Source: Gammaproteobacteria bacterium SG8_30 (GTDB lineage Bacteria > Pseudomonadota > Gammaproteobacteria > Steroidobacterales > Steroidobacteraceae). From it: 64,000 nt of DNA. The position numbers and the translations under genes are program-made. Below the pieces are notes generated by a model, which saw nothing but the letters and a program-made list of their open reading frames with translations, made no database searches and was not told the DNA's origin. The DNA lies in NCBI GenBank assembly GCA_001303245.1, contig LJNS01000034.1, positions 1-64,000 on the forward strand, read 5' to 3'. This document shows positions 5,804-43,300 of this stretch, piece by piece; within the stretch, counting starts at the first letter, position 1; each line of letters opens with the position of its first letter.

Positions 5804-6865
5804 TCAGGTGTTGATGAACAGCGACCTGTCAGCGAACAGGGGCGAGGTGTAGGGCTCGTCGTCGCCGCTGTCGTACTCGGCGTGGTAGCGCGCGACCCGC
5901 TCTACCTCCTCGCTCGAGCCGATGATCACCGGGATCCGCTGGTGCAGGCTCTCGGGCTCGACTTCCATGATCCGGCTGCGGCCGGTGGAGGCCAGCCCAC
6001 CGGCCTGCTCGATCAGGAAGGCCATCGGGTTGGCCTCGTACATCAGGCGCAGGCGGCCTTCGCGGTGCGCCTCCTTCTGGTCGCGCGGGTACATGTAGAT
6101 CCCGCCGCGCATCAGGATGCGGTGCACGTCGGCGACCATCGAGGCCACCCAGCGGGTGTTGAAGTCGCGGCCGCGCGGGCCCTCGCGCCCGGCCTTGCAC
6201 TCCTCGACGTAACGGAAGATGGGCGGCTCCCAGAAACGGCGGTTGGCCGCGTTGATGGCATACTCGGAGGTGCTCGCGGGAATGCGCAGGTCCTCCTTGG
6301 TCAGCACGTAGTTGCCGATCTCGCGGTCGAGCGTGAAGCCGTGGGTGCCGCTGCCGACCGTCACGACCAGCTCGGTCGACGGGCCGTAGATGGCGTACCC
6401 GGCGGCGACCTGCCGGCTGCCGGGCTGCAGCACGGCCTTCAAGTCCCGGGCGCCCTCCGGCAACTCGAGCACCGAGAAGATCGAGCCGACCGCGACGTTC
6501 ACGTCGAGATTGCTCGAGCCGTCCAGCGGGTCGAACACCAGCGCCAGCCGGCCGGGACCGTCGACGATCTGCACGTCGTCCATCTCCTCGGAGGCCAGTG
6601 CGCCCACGAGCCCGCTCCACTCCGTGCCGCGCACGAACAGCTCGTCGGCGAGCACGTCGAGCTTCTTCTGCTCCTCGCCCTGTACGTTCTTGCTGCCGGC
6701 CAGCTTGGACAGCCCCAGCAGCGGCCCCTTGCCCACGGCCGCCGAGATCGCCTTGGTCACCGCGGCCACGTCCACGAGCAGGGCGGCGAGGTCGCGGGCG
6801 TGGGGGCCGGGCGGAATCTGCTCGATCGCGAACTTCGATACGGTCGTGTAGCCCGGGTTCAGCAT
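5804..6865 (-). CDS. fbp: Fructose-1,6-bisphosphatase class I
   Basis: 353 aa; [22 protein letters not shown]; start ATG at 6865 inside a longer ORF; overlaps cbbX by 7 bp. Confidence 0.95.
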
Positions 6866-7758
6866 GCGGCTTTCTCCTTGTCCTTTGCAGCCGGCGCGGC
6901 GTCGAACACGCGGCTCGCCCTGATGTCGGCCTCCTCGATCGTCGTCAGCGACGCCGCGTCCACCTCGCCGGCCTCGATCAGCCTGCGCGCCTGCCTGAGG
7001 CGGGCGCGGTCGAGTGCGTTCCTGAGCGAGCGCGCGTTGGCGAAGTTGGGCTGCTTTCGCCGGATCGACAGGTACTCGGCGAGCGCCTTGCGCGCTCCTT
7101 CCGCAAGCTGCAGCCCGAGACCATCCACCATGCGGTCGGCGATCTGCAGGAGCTCCCCGTCCGAGTAGTCGGGAAAGTCGATGTGGTGGGCCACGCGCGA
7201 GGACAGCCCGGGATTGCTCTCGAAGAAGCGGTCCATCCTCGACTTGTAGCCGGCGAAGATGACCACGAGATCCTCGCGCTGGTTCTCCATCACCTGCATC
7301 AGGATCTCGATGGCCTCCTGGCCGTAGTCCCGCTCGTTCTCGGGCCGGTAGAGGTAATAGGCCTCGTCGATGAACAGGACGCCGCCCATGGCCTTCTTGA
7401 GGACTTCCTTGGTCTTGGGCGCCGTGTGGCCGATGTACTGGCCCACGAGGTCGTCGCGGGTGACGGCCACGAGGTGGCCCTTCCGCACGTGGCCGAGCCG
7501 GTGGAGTATCTCGGCCATGCGCATCGCCACCGTGGTCTTGCCGGTACCGGGATTGCCCGTGAAGCACATGTGCAGCGAGGGCGGGGCACTCGTGACGCCG
7601 AGCGCCTCGCGCGCCTTCTCGACGACGAGCAGCGAGGCGATCTCGCGGATCCGGGTCTTGACGGGCTTGAGGCCGACGAGCTCCCGGTCGAGCTCGTCGA
7701 GCACGTCCGAGACGTGCGACTCGTCGAGCATCCTCTTCAGGTCGACGGTGTCGGCCAT
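6859..7758 (-). CDS. cbbX: Red-type Rubisco activase CbbX (AAA+)
   Basis: 299 aa; [36 protein letters not shown]. Confidence 0.95.
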
Positions 7759-7770
7759 CGCAGGCGCCCG

Positions 7771-8163
7771 TCAGGACCGGACCGTCTCGAGCTCGTAGCG
7801 TATGTTGCGCCCGCTCGTGTCAGTGCGCCGCAGGTTGAATTCCGGCTCCCTTGCAGGTCGGTCGACGATGAACGACAGCCGCATCGTCTCGAAGCCGAGC
7901 GTGGAATCGAAGGCATTGACCTTGATGTAGCGGTCCGGGAAGACCTTGCGGCACTCCTTCAGCTCGGTCATGAGGCCCGCCGCGTCCTTCAGGTCGAACA
8001 TCGGCATGCCCCACATCTCCCAGTAGGTATTGCGGGGGTGCGGGTCGTCGGTGTGTTCGATCGACACCGCCCAGCCCTGGTCGAGCGCGTACTCGACCTG
8101 CTTGGCGATCTGCTCGTCCGTCAGGTCCGGCAGGAATGAGAACGTACCTTGCGTGATGCGCAT
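7771..8163 (-). CDS. cbbS: Ribulose bisphosphate carboxylase small subunit
   Basis: 130 aa [58 protein letters not shown]. Confidence 0.97.
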
Positions 8164-8174
8164 GATCTTGCTCC

Positions 8175-9761
<1,587 letters not shown>

Positions 9762-30076: not shown

Positions 30077-32134
30077 ATGACCCTCTCTGATCGGCGACTC
30101 GCCGGCCTCGTGACCCTGTGCCTGTCGACCTCCGGTGCGGCCGTTGCGGCGGCGGAAGATGCCCTGCCCGTCTATCGCCTGGGCGAGACTCTGATGGTAG
30201 TCGGTGAGCGCCCGCGCGTCGCCGACACGGCGGCGACCGTGGACGTCGTCACGTCCGAGGAGATCGCGCGGCGCGGCGTGCGCACCCTCGACGAGGCGAT
30301 CGCGCTCCTGCCAGGCGTCTACGTCCGCTACGGCGCGGACGGCGTCCCGCGCGTGGACATCCGCGGCCTGCGCACGCGCAACGTCCTGCTGCTGCAGGAC
30401 GGCGTGCCGCTCAACTCGACCTACGACGGGCAGTTCGACCCCTCTGCCATCCCGGTGGACAACATCGCCGCCATCAAGGTCACCCGCGGCGCGAGTTCGG
30501 TGCTCTACGGGCCCGGCGGCAACGCGGGCGTGATCGAGATCGTCACCCGGTCGGCCGGACGGTCGGCCGAGGGGGGTGTGCTCACCGAGTCAGAGGTGTC
30601 GCAGTCCTGGCTCGCACGCGGGTCGGTGAGCGGCCGGATCGGCCCGGCCGGAGTCTCGCTGTCGGGCTCGTGGTACGACCGGGGCTCCTTCGAGCTGTCC
30701 GATGATTTCGAGCCCACGCGCCTGCAGCCGGACGAGGAGCGCGTCAACAGCGACCGCGAGGATCGCGCCATGCAGGCGAACCTCACTTTCGGGGAGCAGG
30801 GCCGGGAGCTGGGGCTCAGTCTCGCCTGGCGCGACGGCGAGTACGGCAAGCCGCCGACAACGGTCGACAACCGGGACTCCGACTTCGCAAACCGTGCCCG
30901 GTACGAGCGCGTCGGGTTCGACACGCTCTCGGTGCAGGCTGCGGGGGAGTACGTCACCGGCGGCGGACTGATGCTGCGACCCTCCGTGTACTTCAACCGG
31001 GGCAACGAGCTGACCGACGGCTACGACAACGCCGACTTCGACAGCCAGGAAGCCGCCGGTGCATTCCGTGAGGACGCCACCACCGAGGTGCTCGGGGCCG
31101 GCCTGCTGGCTTCCGTGGCCTTCGGCGAACGGGGACTCGTGTCGTTCTCGGTGAACGGTCGCGACGAAAGCTGGAATGCCGAAGGCTTCACCGTGGAAGC
31201 CTCCTCCGGCGGTGGCGGAGGTGGCGGAGGTGGCGGCGGCGGCGGCGGCGGCGGAGGCGGCGGAGGCGGCGGCACCACGGCCGTGGTCACCCCCTTCGAC
31301 CAGGACGAGTCGCTCAAGGTCTACTCGCTGGGCGCCGAGGCCCAGTACGAGTTCACCGAGAGGTTCGAGGCCCTGGCTGGCGTCGGCTACAGCCGCCAGG
31401 AGCGCGCCGACGGGCCGAACGACGACGGCGTCTCGGCGAACCTGGGCGGTCGCTTCGCCTTCACGGAAGCGACCGCGCTGCGCGCATCGTTTGCACGGCA
31501 GATCCGGTTTCCGACGCTCAGGGACCTGTATGCCGTCGACCGCGGGAACCCGGAGCTGTCGGCCGAGACCACGGAGTCCTACGACCTGGGCCTCGAACAT
31601 CGCCTCGCGGCCTCGGGAGTGGTGCTGGAGGCGGTACTGTTCCGGATCGACGCGGAGGACTTCATCGAGCGTCCTCCCGGCGGCGGCGTCACCCAGAACT
31701 ACGACTCCTACCGCTTCCAGGGCGTGGAGCTGACCGCCGGCCGGCGCGGCGAGGGCCGTCTCGACTTTTCGATCGGCTACACGTACATGGACTCGGAGAA
31801 CCGCTCCCCCGGCGCCGACACGACGACCCTGCAGAACCGGCCGGAGCACAAGGCGACGCTGCGGCTCGACTACGGCGTGACGCCCGAGCTGCGCGTCGGC
31901 GGCTCCTGGGTGTACGCCGCCGGCAGCTATGCGCTTTCGCGGAGCACGCCCACCACGGCGCTCGAGCTCGACGCCTACCACGTCGTCGACCTCGACCTGT
32001 CCTGGACCGTGCTCGACGGTCGCGGCCGCCTGTTCGGTCGTGTCGAGAACGCGCTCGACGAGAACTACCAGGAGTCCTTTGGCTTCCCGCAGCCGGGCAG
32101 GCGGTTCGTGCTGGGTGTCGAGCTGCGACTCTGA
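30077..32134 (+). CDS. TonB-dependent outer membrane receptor with internal poly-Gly tract
   Basis: 685 aa; plug domain (LPGVYVRYGADGVPRVDIRGLRTRNVLLLQDGVPLN), C-terminal barrel. Confidence 0.9.
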   Translation: MTLSDRRLAGLVTLCLSTSGAAVAAAEDALPVYRLGETLMVVGERPRVADTAATVDVVTSEEIARRGVRTLDEAIALLPGVYVRYGADGVPRVDIRGLRTRNVLLLQDGVPLNSTYDGQFDPSAIPVDNIAAIKVTRGASSVLYGPGGNAGVIEIVTRSAGRSAEGGVLTESEVSQSWLARGSVSGRIGPAGVSLSGSWYDRGSFELSDDFEPTRLQPDEERVNSDREDRAMQANLTFGEQGRELGLSLAWRDGEYGKPPTTVDNRDSDFANRARYERVGFDTLSVQAAGEYVTGGGLMLRPSVYFNRGNELTDGYDNADFDSQEAAGAFREDATTEVLGAGLLASVAFGERGLVSFSVNGRDESWNAEGFTVEASSGGGGGGGGGGGGGGGGGGGGGGTTAVVTPFDQDESLKVYSLGAEAQYEFTERFEALAGVGYSRQERADGPNDDGVSANLGGRFAFTEATALRASFARQIRFPTLRDLYAVDRGNPELSAETTESYDLGLEHRLAASGVVLEAVLFRIDAEDFIERPPGGGVTQNYDSYRFQGVELTAGRRGEGRLDFSIGYTYMDSENRSPGADTTTLQNRPEHKATLRLDYGVTPELRVGGSWVYAAGSYALSRSTPTTALELDAYHVVDLDLSWTVLDGRGRLFGRVENALDENYQESFGFPQPGRRFVLGVELRL
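31208..31273 (+). repeat. GGN microsatellite encoding 22 consecutive glycines
   Basis: Run of GGC/GGT/GGA codons in frame of the TonB receptor. Confidence 0.95.
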
Positions 32135-32173: not shown

Positions 32174-32785
32174 TCAGCGGCGCGCGGCGGCCCTCTCGGT
32201 CGCGCGCCAGAGCAGCACCGCGGCGGCCCTCTCGGTCGCGCGCCAGAGCAGCACCGCGGCGAGTGCCCCGGCAAAGCCGAATACGAGGTGCGTCAGGATC
32301 GGGTAGACCGGCCCCGCCCGCAGCGAGCCGAACTGCATGCCGAAGAGCTCGTGCGCGAGGACGCGCATGACCGGTTTCGTCGCAAACGCCAGCGCTGCCA
32401 CGACGGGCAGGAACACCAGGAAGCGCCCGAGCGCCGGTCGCAGCCCGTACCCCAGGTCGATCACGAGGCCCGGCAGCAGGTAGAACAGTGGCGCGAGCAC
32501 GCCGTGATCGGCCCCGAGAGCCGGCGCGGCCACGGCCGCACTGCTCGCCACGAGCGTGGCCGACCAGCGGTGGCTGCAGCTCAACCTGCCGATTACGAGC
32601 AAAGCCATTGCCTCGAGCCCGTGGTGCCCGGGCATCTGCAATGGCCAGCGGAAGGCTTGCTCCAGCACGACGACCGCGACGCCGAGCGAGACAAGCCACA
32701 AGAGCCTGCCGATGCTCAGTCCGCCCGTCAGCTCAATAGCGCCGAATAGCTTCCTTGGGGAGGAGTTCCCAGTCGTTGTTGGCAT
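32174..32785 (-). CDS. Multi-pass membrane protein, unknown (start uncertain)
   Basis: Up to 203 aa with several hydrophobic segments; C-terminus contains AAVLLWRATERA twice. Confidence 0.6.
   Translation of the reverse strand: MPTTTGNSSPRKLFGAIELTGGLSIGRLLWLVSLGVAVVVLEQAFRWPLQMPGHHGLEAMALLVIGRLSCSHRWSATLVASSAAVAAPALGADHGVLAPLFYLLPGLVIDLGYGLRPALGRFLVFLPVVAALAFATKPVMRVLAHELFGMQFGSLRAGPVYPILTHLVFGFAGALAAVLLWRATERAAAVLLWRATERAAARR
32185..32256. repeat. Perfect 36-bp tandem duplication
   Basis: CGGCGGCCCTCTCGGTCGCGCGCCAGAGCAGCACCG at 32185-32220 and again at 32221-32256. Confidence 0.97.
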
Positions 32786-33493
32786 GATTCTCTTCCAGGC
32801 ACTCCCTTACCAACAAGATGGCCCGGTCGTTCAACAAGACGGGCCGTGGCCACGGATCCACGCGTATGCGAGCTTCCCCCGGCACGCCCCGGCCGTCAAC
32901 CGTTTCCACCGCAGCGATGCCGGTATGGGCCAGGAGCCAGCTCGCGGTGGCCGTCCCGGTGAGTTCGCGGACGCCCGCGAGCCAGATGAAGCGGCCGTCG
33001 TGGCCGCCGCGCCGCAGGCCCACTGCGGCGAGCGCACCGATGACGCCCATCTCGTCGCCCGTGACCCCTTCGAGGTGCACGCCGACTCGCGCCGCGAGGT
33101 CCCGCGCCGCGTCCCGGACCAGTATCTCGCGCTTGGCGGCCCGGGCAAATTCCACCATGGTCGCGGACACCGACTCGAATGCCGCGACGCACAAACCTGC
33201 ATCCGACCCCGGCGCCCTGCATCCGACCCCGGCGCGCTCTCCTCCGCCAGGTACTGCCGGCAGAAGCCGACGATCGCCTCCAGCGATCCGTCCTCGAGCC
33301 AGATGTCGAGGCAGGCAGCGCTGTTGTGCGACGTGTAGGGAATGTCCGGGTGGACGTAGAGTTGGTGCCGCGTGATGCCGGCAAGACGGCCGAGTTTCGC
33401 CTCCCCCAGCCGCGCACCGAGCTGTCGCGCCCGGAACCCCGTACCGCGCGACTCGGCGTTGTCAGTGTCGTCGATCCCGATGAGGCAGCGCAT
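32733..33493 (-). pseudogene. TiaS-like 'GIDDTD' domain protein, split by tandem duplication
   Basis: N-part MRCLIGIDDTDNAESRGTGFRARQ...HPDIPYTSHNSAACLDIW; C-part MGVIGALAAVGLRRGGHDGRFIWLAG in another frame; removing one 20-bp copy restores the frame. Confidence 0.65.
33196..33235. repeat. Perfect 20-bp tandem duplication
   Basis: CCTGCATCCGACCCCGGCGC at 33196-33215 and 33216-33235. Confidence 0.97.
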
Positions 33494-33564: not shown

Positions 33565-34626
33565 TCAGGCCGACGCAGGCGCCGATCTGCCGGACGACTC
33601 CCCCTCGCCATGTGCCTGGCCGTGCTTCTTGACCTCATCGAGCCAGAGGTTGTGGTGCTGCTTGGCCCAGCCCTCGTCCACCTCGCCGGACACCATGCCC
33701 TCGAGGGCACCCTCGCTTCCGAGGGTTCCGAGGTAGATGTGCGCGCAAACCGCCGTGATCACGACCAGCGAACCGATGCCGTGTACCACGTTCGCGATCT
33801 GCATGGCCTCCCGCTCGAAGCCCAGGTTCGGGAACAGCAGGAAGAACCCCGAGGCCACGATCGCGAAGCCGCCGACCACGAGCAGCCAGTAGTAGGCCTT
33901 CTCGCCGGCATTGCAGAAGCCGGCCGGCGGGTGCGAGCCGTCGAAGAAGCCACCGAGCTGCTTGAACCACTGCCGGTCTTGCGCCTCGAAGACGTTGTGC
34001 TTGAACCACTTGACTACCATCACGACGAGGCCCGCGGTAAAGAACAGCGCCAGGTAGTCGTGCACCGGCTTCGCAAAGTTCGCCCAGGCCGCAAAGCCTT
34101 CCGCACCCATGATCGGAATCAGGGCATACCGGCCCCAGAGCAGCGACAGGCCCGTGATCGCCAGGATGATGAACAGTATCGCCGTGTACCAGTGCAGCAC
34201 GCGATCGAACATTGGCCAGCGCAGCACCGTGCGCCCGGTGCGATGCTCGAGCTTGGCGCCGCCCTTGGTGACCTGGAAGACCACCAGCGCCACGATCATG
34301 CCCACGACCATGATCGCACCGAGCGTCGTGACCGGTCCGTTGCGCACCTCGCGCCAGACCTGCCCGCCACTCTGCACCAGTACACCGGTCTCCTGGCCGG
34401 TCACCGCCGTGTAGCCGGCGGTCCCCTGCCTGACCTCACGCCAGTACTCGGCGCGCGGGTTGGCTTCCTCCGCCTTCTGCTCCTGGGCCTGCGCGCTCGC
34501 CGCGTAGACGTAGCCGGCCAGCGGCGCGACCATCGCCCCGACGGCGATCACGAGCATGCTCCACAGCATCGCCTTGACGCGCCGGCTCAGCTTTGCCGGC
34601 TTGCCCCGTGCTTGGCTCTCGCTCAT
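33565..34626 (-). CDS. fdhC: Formate dehydrogenase gamma subunit (cytochrome b556-type)
   Basis: 353 aa; KGGAKLEHRTGRTVLRWPMFDRVLHWYTAILFIILAITGLSLLWGRY. Confidence 0.9.
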   Translation of the reverse strand: MSESQARGKPAKLSRRVKAMLWSMLVIAVGAMVAPLAGYVYAASAQAQEQKAEEANPRAEYWREVRQGTAGYTAVTGQETGVLVQSGGQVWREVRNGPVTTLGAIMVVGMIVALVVFQVTKGGAKLEHRTGRTVLRWPMFDRVLHWYTAILFIILAITGLSLLWGRYALIPIMGAEGFAAWANFAKPVHDYLALFFTAGLVVMVVKWFKHNVFEAQDRQWFKQLGGFFDGSHPPAGFCNAGEKAYYWLLVVGGFAIVASGFFLLFPNLGFEREAMQIANVVHGIGSLVVITAVCAHIYLGTLGSEGALEGMVSGEVDEGWAKQHHNLWLDEVKKHGQAHGEGESSGRSAPASA

Positions 34627-34669
34627 CAGCTTCTCTCCCGGCCGCCGCCCACCGGGCGGCGACACACAG

Positions 34670-34873
34670 TCAGCGGTCCGTCTGGCTCATCGCGAAGCGT
34701 TCCTGCAGCGCCTCCTTGGCCTCGGGTGTCGCGTGCTTCGCAAGCAGTGGATCGCGGTCACCCTTGTACACGCCCGGCTCGTAGACCGTCGGCGTGACCG
34801 ACTCCCCGCAACCGGCCAGGGCCACCACAGCCACGGCCAGGCAGGCCGCTCCCATCACTCTCAGGCTCTTCAT
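34670..34873 (-). CDS. Small lipoprotein in FDH operon
   Basis: 67 aa; lipobox ALAGC. Confidence 0.65.
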   Translation of the reverse strand: MKSLRVMGAACLAVAVVALAGCGESVTPTVYEPGVYKGDRDPLLAKHATPEAKEALQERFAMSQTDR

Positions 34874-34895
34874 GAGTCTCGCTCCGTTGCGACGG

Positions 34896-35486
34896 TCAGA
34901 CGTCCTCCTGGTAGGCCTTTTCCCAGCCCCAGCTCTGCGGCCGCGTGCCGCGCTTCATGATGCGCTCGCGGTAGATGTCGGCCACCATGTCGCCGTCGCC
35001 GGCGAGCAGCGCCTTGGTCGAGCACATCTCGGCACAGAGCGGCAGCTTGCCTTCCGCGATGCGGTTGCGGCCGTACTTCTCGATCTCCTGCTCGGAGTTG
35101 TCGGCCGGTGGGCCGCCCGCGCAGAACGTGCACTTGTCCATCTTGCCGCGGACGCCGAAGGCCTCCTTCTGCGGGTACTGCGGCGCCCCGAAAGGACAGG
35201 CATAGAAGCAGTAGCCGCAGCCGATGCACAGGTCCTTGTCGTGCAGCACGATGCCGTCGTCGGTCGTGTAGAAGCAGTCGACGGGACACACCGCCGAGCA
35301 GGGCGCGTCGGTGCAGTGCATGCAGGCCACCGAGATCGACTTCTCGCCCGGAACACCGTCCTCGAGCGTCACCACCCGCCGGCGGTTCACGCCCCACGGT
35401 ACGTCGTGCTCGTTCTTGCACGCCGTCACGCAGCCGTTGCACTCGATGCAGCGCTCGGAGTCACACAGGAATTTCATGCGGGCCAT
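34896..35486 (-). CDS. fdhB: Formate dehydrogenase beta subunit (4 [4Fe-4S])
   Basis: 196 aa; CIECNGCVTACKNEHDVPWGVNRRRV, CMHCTDAPCSAVCPVDC. Confidence 0.93.
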   Translation of the reverse strand: MARMKFLCDSERCIECNGCVTACKNEHDVPWGVNRRRVVTLEDGVPGEKSISVACMHCTDAPCSAVCPVDCFYTTDDGIVLHDKDLCIGCGYCFYACPFGAPQYPQKEAFGVRGKMDKCTFCAGGPPADNSEQEIEKYGRNRIAEGKLPLCAEMCSTKALLAGDGDMVADIYRERIMKRGTRPQSWGWEKAYQEDV

Positions 35487-35499
35487 GATCGATCGCCTC

Positions 35500-38388
35500 C
35501 TAGGCTGCAGTGATCTTGCACAACGAGGCCTTGGTTTCCTGCATCGCGGTCACCGAGTCGTAGCCATAGGTGAACGCGGTGTTGGCAGCCTCCCCTCGCA
35601 CGTAGGGCGCAGCGCCCTCCGGATACTTGTCTAACAGGTCCTTGCCCTCGTACCAGCCGCCGAAGTGGAAGGGCGTGAACACCACACCCTTGCCCACGCG
35701 GCGGGTGAGCATGGCCTTCACCTTGATCCGCGCGCCTTCCGGGCTCTCGAGCCAGACCCACTGTCCGTCCTTGACGCCCACGTCGTTGGCGTCCTTGGGA
35801 TTGATCTCGACGAACATGTTCTGCTGCAGCTCGGCGAGCCACGGGTTGGAGCGGGTCTCCTCGCCGCCCCCCTCGTACTCGACCAGCCGCCCGCTGGTGT
35901 GAATCAGCGGGAACTCGCCCGAGTAGTCCTTCGCCTGGATCGACGCGTAGCGCGTCGGCAGGCGCCAGAAGCGCTTGCGGTCCTCGTAGGTCGGGTACTT
36001 GGCCACGAGGTCGTAGCGGGCGGTGTAGAGCGGCTCGCGGTGAATGGGCACCGGGTCCGGGAAGTTCCAGACGATGCAACGGGCCCGGGCGTTGCCGAAG
36101 GGTGCACAGCCGTGCTTGATGGCGACGCGCTGGATACCGCCCGACAGGTCGGTCTTCCAGTTCTTGCCCTCGGCGGCCTTCTTTTCGTCGTCCGTCAGGT
36201 CGTTCCACCAGCCGAGCTGCTTGAGCATGTCGGCGGTGAACTCCGGGTACCCGTCCTTGATCTCCGAGCCCTCGCTCCACGAGCCGTCGGCGAGCAGGTT
36301 CTTTCCCTGGTACTCGACGCCGAACCGCGCGCGGAAGGTCAGGCCGCCCTCCGCCACCGGCTTGCTGGTGTCGTAGAGCACCGGCGTGCCGGGGTGTTTC
36401 ATCTCCGGCGTGCCCCAGGCAGGCCACGGCAGTCCGTAGTAGTCGCCGTCGCAGGGCCCGCCCTCGGCCTTCAGCGTGGTCGTGTTGAAGGTGTGCTTGT
36501 TCTCCATGTGGAGTTTCAGCCGCTCGGGGCTCTGGCCCGTATAGCCGATGGTCCACATGCCGCGGTTGATCTCGCGCAGGATGTCCTCGATCAGCGGCTC
36601 CTCGCCGTTCACCTGGATGTTCTTGAAGAGCTCCTTCTCGAAGCCGAGCTTCTTCGCGAACTTGTACATGATGGTGTGGTCCGGCAGCGACTCGAACAGC
36701 GGGTCGATGACCTTCTCGCGCCACTGCAGCGAGCGGTTGGAGGCCGTGACCGAGCCGTAGGTCTCGAACTGCGTGCAGGCCGGCAGCAGGTAGATGCCGT
36801 CCTGGCGGTCCGGCAGCACGGCCGTGTGCGTCGGATAGGGATCGACGACGACCAGCAGCTCGAGGGCCTCCATGGCCTTCTTCATCTCCGGGCCGCGGGT
36901 CTGGCTGTTCGGCGCGTGGCCCCAGAGGAACATCGCCTTGATGGAGTCCTTCTGCGCGATGTTCTCGCCGGGCTCATTCACGCCGTCGATCCAGCGCGAC
37001 ACCGTGATGCCGCGCAGGAACATGGACGGGGTCTCGGCGCCGCCTTCCTCGTAGCTCGCCTGGTCGAAGCGTGACTTGACCCAGTCGAAGTCGAGGTCCC
37101 AGACGCGCGCCCAGTGCTTCCAGGAGCCTTCCGCGAGGCCGTAGTAGCCCGGCAGCGTGTCGGCCAGCACCCCGAGGTCCGTCGCGCCCTGCACGTTGTC
37201 GTGGCCGCGGAAGATGTTGGCGCCGCCGCCCTCCTTGCCGACGTTGCCGAGCGCCAGCTGCAGCACGCAGTAGGCGCGGGTATTGTTGTTGCCGATGGTG
37301 TGCTGGGTCCCGCCCATGCACCAGACGATGGTGCCCGGCCGGTTCTCGGCCATGGTCTGCGCCGCGCGCTTGACCTCGGCCTCCGGCACGCCGGTGACGT
37401 CCTCGACGACCTTCGGCGTCCAGTTCGCCACTTCCTTGCGGACTTCGTCGAGGCCGAACACGCGCTGGTTGACGTACTCCTTGTCGACCCAGTCGTTCTC
37501 GAAGATGTGCCACAGCATGCCCCAGATCAACGGGACGTCGGTGCCGGGCCGGATCCGCAGGTACTGGTCGGCGTGGGCGGCCGTGCGCGTGAAGCGCGGG
37601 TCGACCACGATCAGCTTCGAGCCGTTCTCCTTGCCGCGCAGCACATGCTGCATCGAGACCGGGTGCGCTTCGGCGGCGTTGCTGCCGATGAAGAACATGG
37701 CCTTGCAGTTGTGCATGTCGTTGTAGGAGTTGGTCATTGCGCCGTAGCCCCAGGTGTTCGCAACACCGGCCACGGTGGTCGAGTGGCAGATGCGCGCCTG
37801 GTGGTCGACGTTGTTCGTCCCCCACATCGCCGCAAACTTGCGGTACAGGTAGGCCTGCTCGTTGTTGAACTTGGCCGAGCCGAGCCAGTAGACCGAGTCC
37901 GGGCTCGCCTTCTCGCGGATCTCGAGCAGCTTGTCGCCGATCTCGTCGATCGCGGTGTCCCAGGACACCTTCTGCCACTTGCCGCCGACGAGCTTCATCG
38001 GGTACTTGAGCCGCCGCTCGCCGTGGCCGTGCTCGCGGACCGAGGCGCCCTTGGCACAGTGCGCGCCGAGATTGAACGGCGAGTCGAAGTCGGGCTCCTG
38101 GCCCGTCCAGACGCCGTCCTGGACCTCGGCAACGACGCCGCAGCCCACGGAGCAGTGGGTGCACACGGACTTCTTGAGGACGGTGTCGCCGTCCGCGGCC
38201 GCAGCAGTGGCCGCGTCCGCGCGGCGCATCATGCGCGTCGGTAACCCGACCGCGATCGCGGCGCCGCCTGCCGCCAGGCCCGTGCCCTGCAGGAAGGCGC
38301 GACGGTCGACCGTTCGTCCGAGCAGCCCTCGCTTCTCGGTAGCAACCGGCTCATGGGTGTCGAGGTTTCTCTTCTTGACCAGCTTCAT
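35500..38388 (-). CDS. fdhA: Formate dehydrogenase alpha subunit, molybdo/tungsto-bis-PGD, cysteine type, Tat-like leader
   Basis: 962 aa; CTHCSVGCG, RICHSTTVAGVANTWGYGAMTN. Confidence 0.95.
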   Translation of the reverse strand: MKLVKKRNLDTHEPVATEKRGLLGRTVDRRAFLQGTGLAAGGAAIAVGLPTRMMRRADAATAAAADGDTVLKKSVCTHCSVGCGVVAEVQDGVWTGQEPDFDSPFNLGAHCAKGASVREHGHGERRLKYPMKLVGGKWQKVSWDTAIDEIGDKLLEIREKASPDSVYWLGSAKFNNEQAYLYRKFAAMWGTNNVDHQARICHSTTVAGVANTWGYGAMTNSYNDMHNCKAMFFIGSNAAEAHPVSMQHVLRGKENGSKLIVVDPRFTRTAAHADQYLRIRPGTDVPLIWGMLWHIFENDWVDKEYVNQRVFGLDEVRKEVANWTPKVVEDVTGVPEAEVKRAAQTMAENRPGTIVWCMGGTQHTIGNNNTRAYCVLQLALGNVGKEGGGANIFRGHDNVQGATDLGVLADTLPGYYGLAEGSWKHWARVWDLDFDWVKSRFDQASYEEGGAETPSMFLRGITVSRWIDGVNEPGENIAQKDSIKAMFLWGHAPNSQTRGPEMKKAMEALELLVVVDPYPTHTAVLPDRQDGIYLLPACTQFETYGSVTASNRSLQWREKVIDPLFESLPDHTIMYKFAKKLGFEKELFKNIQVNGEEPLIEDILREINRGMWTIGYTGQSPERLKLHMENKHTFNTTTLKAEGGPCDGDYYGLPWPAWGTPEMKHPGTPVLYDTSKPVAEGGLTFRARFGVEYQGKNLLADGSWSEGSEIKDGYPEFTADMLKQLGWWNDLTDDEKKAAEGKNWKTDLSGGIQRVAIKHGCAPFGNARARCIVWNFPDPVPIHREPLYTARYDLVAKYPTYEDRKRFWRLPTRYASIQAKDYSGEFPLIHTSGRLVEYEGGGEETRSNPWLAELQQNMFVEINPKDANDVGVKDGQWVWLESPEGARIKVKAMLTRRVGKGVVFTPFHFGGWYEGKDLLDKYPEGAAPYVRGEAANTAFTYGYDSVTAMQETKASLCKITAA

Positions 38389-42343: not shown

Positions 42344-43300
42344 ATGGTGACCAGACGAGCCAGCACGACCACCGTCGACGACGCCCGCGGGCTCGCGGCA
42401 GCGGCGCCGGAGCCCCCGCGCTTCATGTCCGTGCGGGAGGTCGCGCGCTACCTCCAGGTCAACGAAAAGAAGGTCTACGCGCTGGTCAACGAGGGCCGCA
42501 TCCCTGCCACGCGCCTGACGGGCAAGTGGCTCTTCCCGCGCGACCTCCTCGACCAGTGGCTGCTCGAGTCGAGCCACGGCGGCCTGCTCACCGACCGCAT
42601 GGTGATCGCGGGCAGCGACGACCCGCTGCTCGCCCGCGCGGTCAACCTGATGGCGGCGGACCTTCAGGGTCGCGCCATCGTGAGTCACGCGGCGACCGGC
42701 ACGCAGCTCGGGCTCAAGCTGCTGGCCGGACGCCGCGCAGACCTCTGCGCGCTGCACTGGGGCCCGGACACCGAGAGCACCCAGCGGCATCCCGCGCTGT
42801 TGCGACCGTACCCCCAGCACCGTGACTGGATCCTCGTCCGCCTGTTCCGGCGGGAGCAGGGACTGATCGTCTCGCCGGGCGTGTGGAGCGCGGAACGCCG
42901 CCTCGAGGAACTGCTCACGCCCGCCGTGCGCTGGGCGGCGCGCCAGGGAGGCGCGGGCTCGAACCGGTTCCTGCAGGAGCTGTTCGCCGAGCACCGGGCC
43001 GATCCGGCCGACCGGCGGGTCACGGCACGGGCGTACTCCGAGCGCGACGCCGCGGCGGCCGTCGCCATGGGCCAGGCGGACGTCGCACCGGGCGCGCGCG
43101 CCGCTGCGACGGAGTTCGGGCTCGAGTTCCGGCCGATCGGCTGGGAGGCGTTCGACCTGGCGCTTTCGCGCGGAATCTTCTTCCGCACGTTGTTCCGCAC
43201 CTTGCTCGAGCAGCTCGGCGGCGACGAGTGCCGCCGCATGGCGCAGCTGCTCGGCGGCTACGATCTCGCGGACCTCGGCAAGCTCGTCTGGTCGCCCTGA
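42344..43300 (+). CDS. One-component regulator: excisionase-type HTH plus PBP-like (substrate-binding) domain
   Basis: 318 aa; FMSVREVARYLQVNEKKVYALVNEGRIPATRLTGKWLFPRDLLDQWL, then PBP-like region. Confidence 0.85.
   Translation: MVTRRASTTTVDDARGLAAAAPEPPRFMSVREVARYLQVNEKKVYALVNEGRIPATRLTGKWLFPRDLLDQWLLESSHGGLLTDRMVIAGSDDPLLARAVNLMAADLQGRAIVSHAATGTQLGLKLLAGRRADLCALHWGPDTESTQRHPALLRPYPQHRDWILVRLFRREQGLIVSPGVWSAERRLEELLTPAVRWAARQGGAGSNRFLQELFAEHRADPADRRVTARAYSERDAAAAVAMGQADVAPGARAAATEFGLEFRPIGWEAFDLALSRGIFFRTLFRTLLEQLGGDECRRMAQLLGGYDLADLGKLVWSP

Follow-up and report, generated by a model that had tools for sequence, protein, structure and literature searches.

What does a gene that resembles an archaeal tRNA-modifying enzyme do in a bacterium, beside a TonB-dependent receptor and a membrane protein, and is the 20-bp tandem duplication that breaks its frame a regulatory device or an accident? 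The gene, referred to here as TiaSL, lies on the minus strand of the window, by which we mean the whole stretch of DNA analysed: 64,000 nucleotides of contig LJNS01000034.1 from Gammaproteobacteria bacterium SG8_30 (genome G000). In what follows, G001 and G005 are genomes of the same genus, numbers beginning with L denote homologous loci, and mmp11 stands for methanogenesis marker protein 11. The features of the window on which the argument draws are these:

30077-32134 (+): TonB-dependent receptor, convergent neighbour of the cassette (Pfam and NCBIfam); G001, G005 and L016 have the same neighbour, and 46 loci hold a receptor of this family
31207-31273 (+): poly-glycine loop of the receptor, 22 Gly, encoded by a CGG-type repeat; a Gly-rich loop lies at the same place in most cassette receptors
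32174-32785 (-): membrane protein with a predicted ECF S-component fold and a PGHHG motif (by alignment); 53-bp overlap with the end of TiaSL
32183-32261 (-): 36-bp unit repeated in tandem (2.2 copies), exact and in frame, at the 3' end of the S-component gene; G005 and G001 lack it
32733-33493 (-): TiaS/mmp11-like gene TiaSL, frame broken; intact homologs at L006:1482-2219:- and L007/L008
32733-33194 (-): shifted-frame C-terminal 153 codons of TiaSL (LCVAAFESV ... EAIRRY); dN/dS 0.24-0.28
33196-33235 (-): exact 2 x 20-bp tandem duplication, frame-shifting; one copy in relatives
33215-33493 (-): native-frame N-terminal 93 codons of TiaSL (GIDDTD ... GSDAG); 73-76% identity to G001/G005
33565-34665 (-): formate dehydrogenase gamma subunit, cytochrome b (TIGR01583, 1.8e-53)
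34896-35486 (-): formate dehydrogenase FDH3 beta subunit (NF038355, 1.5e-104, above cut-off)
35500-38388 (-): formate dehydrogenase alpha subunit, a Mo/W-pterin enzyme (Pfam and NCBIfam scans)
42344-43300 (+): regulator with HTH_17 and PBP_like domains; 41% identity to L084:304-1209:-

Inspection of the sequence confirmed that CCTGCATCCGACCCCGGCGC is present as two exact head-to-tail copies at 33196-33235, a repeat that is not a chance similarity. The minus-strand gene, 33493-32733, starts with MRCLIGIDDTDNAESRGTGF; as read, its frame encodes about 93 native residues and after them 127 that are frameshifted, the shift of +20 having moved the remaining 153 native codons into another frame. The TiaSL gene of G005 carries a single copy, with AAESAPGSDAGLCVAAFDEV at the duplication site, and has an open frame of 245 aa. 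A sequence-only reading of the window had described a TiaS-like GIDDTD gene broken by a perfect 20-bp tandem duplication, and had calculated that deletion of one copy would join the 33493 and 33194 frames; the join in G005 reads ESAPGSDAGLCVAAF, as had been predicted. G001 has a single copy as well, in a gene interrupted where one contig stops; contigs C42 and C114 (L007 and L008), which carry the parts, share an exact 99-bp overlap and together form an open TiaSL gene, and the split is an assembly break and not a mutation. In the sampled sequence, the window copy of TiaSL is a null allele by virtue of the 20-bp duplication.

The same reading had suggested that the repeat could be a reversible ON/OFF switch. 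Slippage could indeed return two exact copies to one, the frame is shifted by the repeat, and TiaSL is otherwise intact and under constraint; however, there are two copies only, where phase-variable genes are marked by a tract of many short units or by alleles in both states among relatives, and the closest relatives, G001 and G005, both lack the repeat. A comparable repeat in the TiaSL gene was found in none of 68 homologous genes, one of which has an unrelated 10-bp repeat. Exact duplications with a unit of at least 18 bp numbered 5 in 354 kb of the window's own genome (sampled as 20 contig stretches), 2 in the window, within about 1 kb of each other, and 17 in the homolog loci, which total 1.24 Mb; several of those in G000 have units that are not multiples of three. 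Duplications of this size thus occur at a background rate, and the 20-bp duplication is an ordinary type of event. We regard phase variation of TiaSL as highly improbable. That the duplication is an artefact of assembly or strain mixture, with an intact gene in the organism, is by comparison a possibility to be entertained seriously, if tentatively. G000 is a draft in 113 contigs with a completeness of 74.6%, and a second exact duplication lies about 1 kb away; against this, exact duplications are no more frequent in G000 than in other genomes. Downstream of the break, TiaSL shows a dN/dS of 0.24-0.28 against its relatives, equal to the value for two intact relatives compared with each other (0.29), from which we infer that the break arose recently, is rare or does not exist in the organism. 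For four other duplications with units not divisible by three, reduction to a single copy gave a longer longest stop-free stretch, but the test is blunt, as it counts either strand and any frame, and it was set aside as evidence of an artefact. The duplication is most likely either a mutation that arose recently and has no regulatory role or a mistake of assembly, and the frameshift itself is of minor interest. The interesting part of the locus is the TiaSL family, whose novelty lies outside the interval 32733-33493 with which the sequence-only reading was concerned.

Scans of the separate halves of the window TiaSL against Pfam and NCBIfam gave only marginal matches to TiaS and mmp11; single halves are too weak, and alignment-level searches were needed to show the relation to TiaS. 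All 33 of the aligned TiaSL members match TIGR03280 (best 2.6e-15) and the TiaS model NF040849 (best 1.6e-13), and 21 of the 33 match Pfam TiaS_TCKD. When the family profile was compared with the PDB, TiaS structures were recovered at E 1.7e-7 to 3e-6, collinear from residue 1 to about 155. An AlphaFold model of intact TiaSL had a pLDDT of 92.4, and its top PDB folds were again those of TiaS (E 3.7e-10, about 155 columns, 24-26% identity). Invariant in the TiaSL alignment are IDDTD, G17-T18-G19, RHQL, YTSHNS and G146-A147, and residue 18 aligns to Thr18 of TiaS with no gap. The earlier proposal of a resemblance to the TiaS core, for which HMM and AlphaFold comparisons had been suggested as checks, is thus borne out by the HMMs, the PDB profile matches and the predicted structure alike; so is the remark that an RNA-binding C-terminal part is missing, since the fold and sequence alignments to TiaS both end near residue 155 and are followed by a tail of about 90 aa that is TiaSL's own. 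Weak fold matches to HPPK, a pterin pyrophosphokinase, were also returned; these are matches of a ferredoxin-like fold and were not used as evidence.

With TiaS, the archaeal tRNA(Ile2) 2-agmatinylcytidine synthetase (PDB 3AMT/3AMU/4RVZ/5XOB, NF040849, PF22641), TiaSL shares the TCKD fold over residues 1-155, GIDDTD, Thr18 and GxIGALAAVG. It is, however, about half as long (245 aa against ~420), its own tail standing in place of the later tRNA-binding domains, and the G005 protein scores 24.3 bits against NF040849, whose curated cut-off is 600. The G005 protein likewise aligns to positions 134-284 of the 292 in TIGR03280 with 36 bits (cut-off 255.8), mmp11 having some 130 additional N-terminal positions; a search for mmp11 by name, in literature that includes few subscription journals, found nothing. 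The bacterial hosts of TiaSL keep TilS, the enzyme that TiaS replaces in decoding AUA; among 19 TiaSL genomes, 18 have a TilS above cut-off, and only that of the window, which is incomplete, does not. Judged by alignment and modelled structure, TiaSL has a TiaS-like catalytic domain and is not a TiaS orthologue, because the later TiaS domains are missing and TilS is kept; by its profile scores it is not mmp11 either. The shared catalytic domain and conserved Thr18 are what could be said for a bacterial TiaS that modifies tRNA, replacing or supplementing TilS. Replacement was rejected on the TilS count, and TiaSL also stands in transport operons with Mo/W-type riboswitches and not among translation genes, so that together with the loss of every TiaS domain beyond residue ~155 a tRNA-modifying role is very hard to credit. 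The suggestion that TiaSL may act on another substrate is supported both by the retention of TilS and by its transport and tungsten/Mo-cofactor context.

A scan of one genome per species, across about 85,000 species, returned some 495 relatives of TiaSL, a number at odds with the earlier impression that such a gene is unusual in a bacterium. The best 80 of these ~495 come from Shewanella, Ferrimonas, Marinobacter, Oceanospirillum, Geobacterales, Desulfuromonadales, many Clostridia, some Bacillaceae and one Kiritimatiellales genome. At the loci examined, TiaSL usually closes a transport operon or lies close to its end; the operon in Proteobacteria runs TonB receptor, fused EcfA, EcfT, S-component, TiaSL, and in Firmicutes runs secreted Ig-like (Big_5) protein, often Gly/Ser-rich, FecCD permease, ATPase, Peripla_BP_2 binding protein, TiaSL. 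Across 83 loci, its neighbours included an ABC ATPase in 75, EcfT in 48, a TonB receptor in 46, an S-component in 45, FecCD in 22 and a periplasmic binding protein in 21. The sequence-only reading had proposed to look for homologs with an intact frame next to the same two neighbours, TonB receptor and membrane protein; these exist in the genus and far beyond it.

Several smaller features of these loci were also recorded. In a Syntrophomonas MAG (L086, ~6184-8452), a FecCD-type ABC transporter and a Moco riboswitch are followed by three consecutive TiaSL paralogs. A small Cys-containing protein of about 95 aa (CYNCxYRRW ... C in several) follows or adjoins TiaSL at 12 loci from several phyla (L018, L019, L020, L032, L033, L049, L056, L058, L063, L076, L080 and L094). 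An amino-acid-kinase-family protein, possibly similar to molybdenum storage proteins, lies near TiaSL in L046, L047, L070, L093 and L095; its best NCBIfam match is pyrH_arch, below cut-off.

The membrane protein that overlaps TiaSL in the window matches no Pfam or NCBIfam family. An AlphaFold model of its relative in G005 (73% identity to the window protein) had a pLDDT of 85.9, and the top 12 PDB folds for that model were all ECF S-components (TM 0.46-0.67, probability 0.93-1.00, best E 5e-3); the predicted fold is that shared by ECF transporters with vitamin-type S-components such as RibU, ThiT, PanT and others. An EcfA-EcfT-S operon, as in ECF transporters, is present at the TiaSL loci of Shewanella, Desulfuromonadales and relatives. 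In contrast, a search for EcfT (PF02361) found none in G000, G001, G005 or a further genome, G370, while G298 and G348 do contain it; the explanation that we favour below does not account for import through the S-component, in the absence of this energising module, in these genomes, and this counts against it. The 36-bp repeat of the window's S-component gene adds extra LLWRATERAAAV units that G005 and G001 do not have.

On the receptor side, most cassette TonB receptors carry a Gly-rich loop at about residues 370-400, either poly-G or GGGX (L016:10313-12370, L015, L019-L055). The run of straight glycines counts 20 in L016, and Shewanella receptors have (GGGS/GGGN/GGGT)n at this place; loop length differs even between close relatives, with 22 glycines in the window and 17 in G001.

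Because the neighbours of TiaSL suggested molybdenum/tungsten metabolism, the loci were compared with Rfam. The Moco riboswitch, RF01055, is present at 20 of the 40 non-gammaproteobacterial TiaSL loci scanned, against an expectation from whole-genome counts of about 0.03 per locus of such size, a value that is inflated if anything, as most of the genomes counted had been chosen for having matches. Most of these riboswitches stand at the head of the operon that contains TiaSL, and in L073 and L094 one directly precedes the TiaSL gene. All 30 matches were 116-122 nt long against a model of 135 positions, and none of the alignments inspected retains the part of the model that forms stem P3. Regulski et al. 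2008 (PMC2408646) report that, of 19 organisms whose RNAs lack P3, 17 have genes indicative of tungsten-cofactor metabolism; the TiaSL operons of Firmicutes and Geobacterales are headed or adjoined by this tungsten-associated form and so resemble the Moco/Tuco regulon treated there. The passages considered mention unnamed genes without assigned function in an S. wolfei operon and name neither the TiaSL family nor the TonB/ECF proteins that accompany it. For P. carbinolicus, the genome paper remarks on TonB-type channels near molybdopterin riboswitches and suggests metal transport (PMC3543383); beyond this remark, a literature search that covered few subscription journals found no link between TonB/ECF uptake and Moco/Tuco riboswitches, and no role for TiaSL.

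Individual loci and whole genomes gave a similar picture. The Geobacter locus L094 has three P3-less riboswitches, before AOR, before TiaSL and before MoaE, and L082 has one before MoaE and another before the TupA-like gene of an ECF operon. Genes of molybdenum or tungsten metabolism (moaA, moeA, moaE, mobB, tupA-like, AOR and others) lay within about 8 kb in 12 of 43 non-gammaproteobacterial loci. AOR, a tungsten enzyme, was present in all 16 of the non-gammaproteobacterial TiaSL genomes tested and in none of four gammaproteobacterial ones. In a sample of 194 Bacillaceae genomes the association is modest: the six with TiaSL all have AOR, which occurs in 107 of the 194 overall. RF01055 was found neither in the window, G000, G001 and G005 nor in the four gammaproteobacterial loci and the Bacillus loci scanned. 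In Firmicutes and Geobacterales, genomic context thus gives good support to a link of TiaSL with tungsten or molybdenum; in Gammaproteobacteria, the window included, the link is weaker.

In the window, TiaSL directly follows the genes of an FDH3-type formate dehydrogenase (33565-38388), and among six genomes of the window's genus TiaSL and FDH3 occur together in three and are both missing from three, a co-occurrence of linked genes that may represent a single event, in a set that includes incomplete genomes. A specific dependence of TiaSL on FDH3 across Pseudomonadota was considered and dropped: FDH3 occurs in 61 of 399 Pseudomonadota genomes, mostly without TiaSL, and is far commoner than TiaSL, so that FDH3 does not require it, and G370 has TiaSL without FDH3. 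Homologs of the HTH_17/PBP_like regulator encoded at 42344-43300 stand beside the TiaSL operon in six Shewanella loci.

We consider it likely that TiaSL is the catalytic-domain enzyme of an uptake-and-processing cassette that supplies tungsten/molybdenum-pterin enzymes, and that the window holds a copy mutated by the 20-bp duplication. The TCKD of TiaS spends ATP on activating the C2 carbonyl of a cytidine, which agmatine then attacks. TiaSL appears to keep only this ATP-using catalytic domain (TCKD, GIDDTD, Thr18) with its own C-terminal part of ~90 aa, and by its homology to TiaS it probably phosphorylates or activates a small molecule at the expense of ATP. From operon context, the likely candidates are a Mo/W-related import or an intermediate of the tungsten/molybdenum cofactor. 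In Proteobacteria, a Mo/W-related compound would enter through the TonB receptor with its glycine-rich loop and the ECF-type S-component, with EcfA/EcfT in most; in Firmicutes, it would enter by way of the secreted Ig-like protein and the FecCD-type ABC transporter. TiaSL would then act in the cytoplasm, in an ATP-driven activation or modification of the imported compound or of a cofactor intermediate. What the analysis demonstrates is the homology with the predicted fold, the linked operon, the tungsten-type riboswitches and the connection to AOR and FDH3; from these we infer that the imported compound would be tungsten-related and the chemistry kinase-like.

The cargo may be narrowed further, if with less assurance. 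ECF importers under riboswitch control generally carry the ligand of the riboswitch or its precursor, as in the thiamine, riboflavin and folate systems, a rule that fits import of tungsten in some complexed form; the TupA- or TupC-like genes near several loci suggest an imported form other than free tungstate. It is conceivable, though we would not yet call it probable, that the cassette is a dedicated route for complexed tungsten, as a chelate or as the pterin cofactor itself, from the TonB receptor to the ECF or FecCD transporter, with TiaSL unlocking or activating the import at the expense of ATP. A different metal complex or a vitamin, for instance a corrinoid or a siderophore, would make the Mo/W link a regulatory coincidence. 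Such a cargo is hinted at by the best-scoring models for the receptor, which are siderophore and vitamin-B12 receptors, and by the likeness of the Firmicutes binding protein to heme, siderophore and B12 binders, yet the scores of receptor and binding protein alike fall far below the family cut-offs, and a cobalamin riboswitch was found at none of the scanned loci, whereas RF01055 was found at 20 of them; we think such a cargo unlikely.

How tungsten, or a complex of it, crosses the bacterial outer membrane is poorly understood, and the cassette is a concrete, testable candidate. The TiaS/mmp11 superfamily has one assigned function, tRNA modification, and a methanogen member that has none assigned; the several hundred bacterial homologs offer a candidate for another role, based on their association with a transport operon and tungsten-type riboswitches as well as with AOR or formate dehydrogenase. 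If the cassette is indeed a route for complexed tungsten, it would give this superfamily a non-tRNA function, and would suggest a role in the tungsten/molybdenum cofactor for methanogenesis marker 11.
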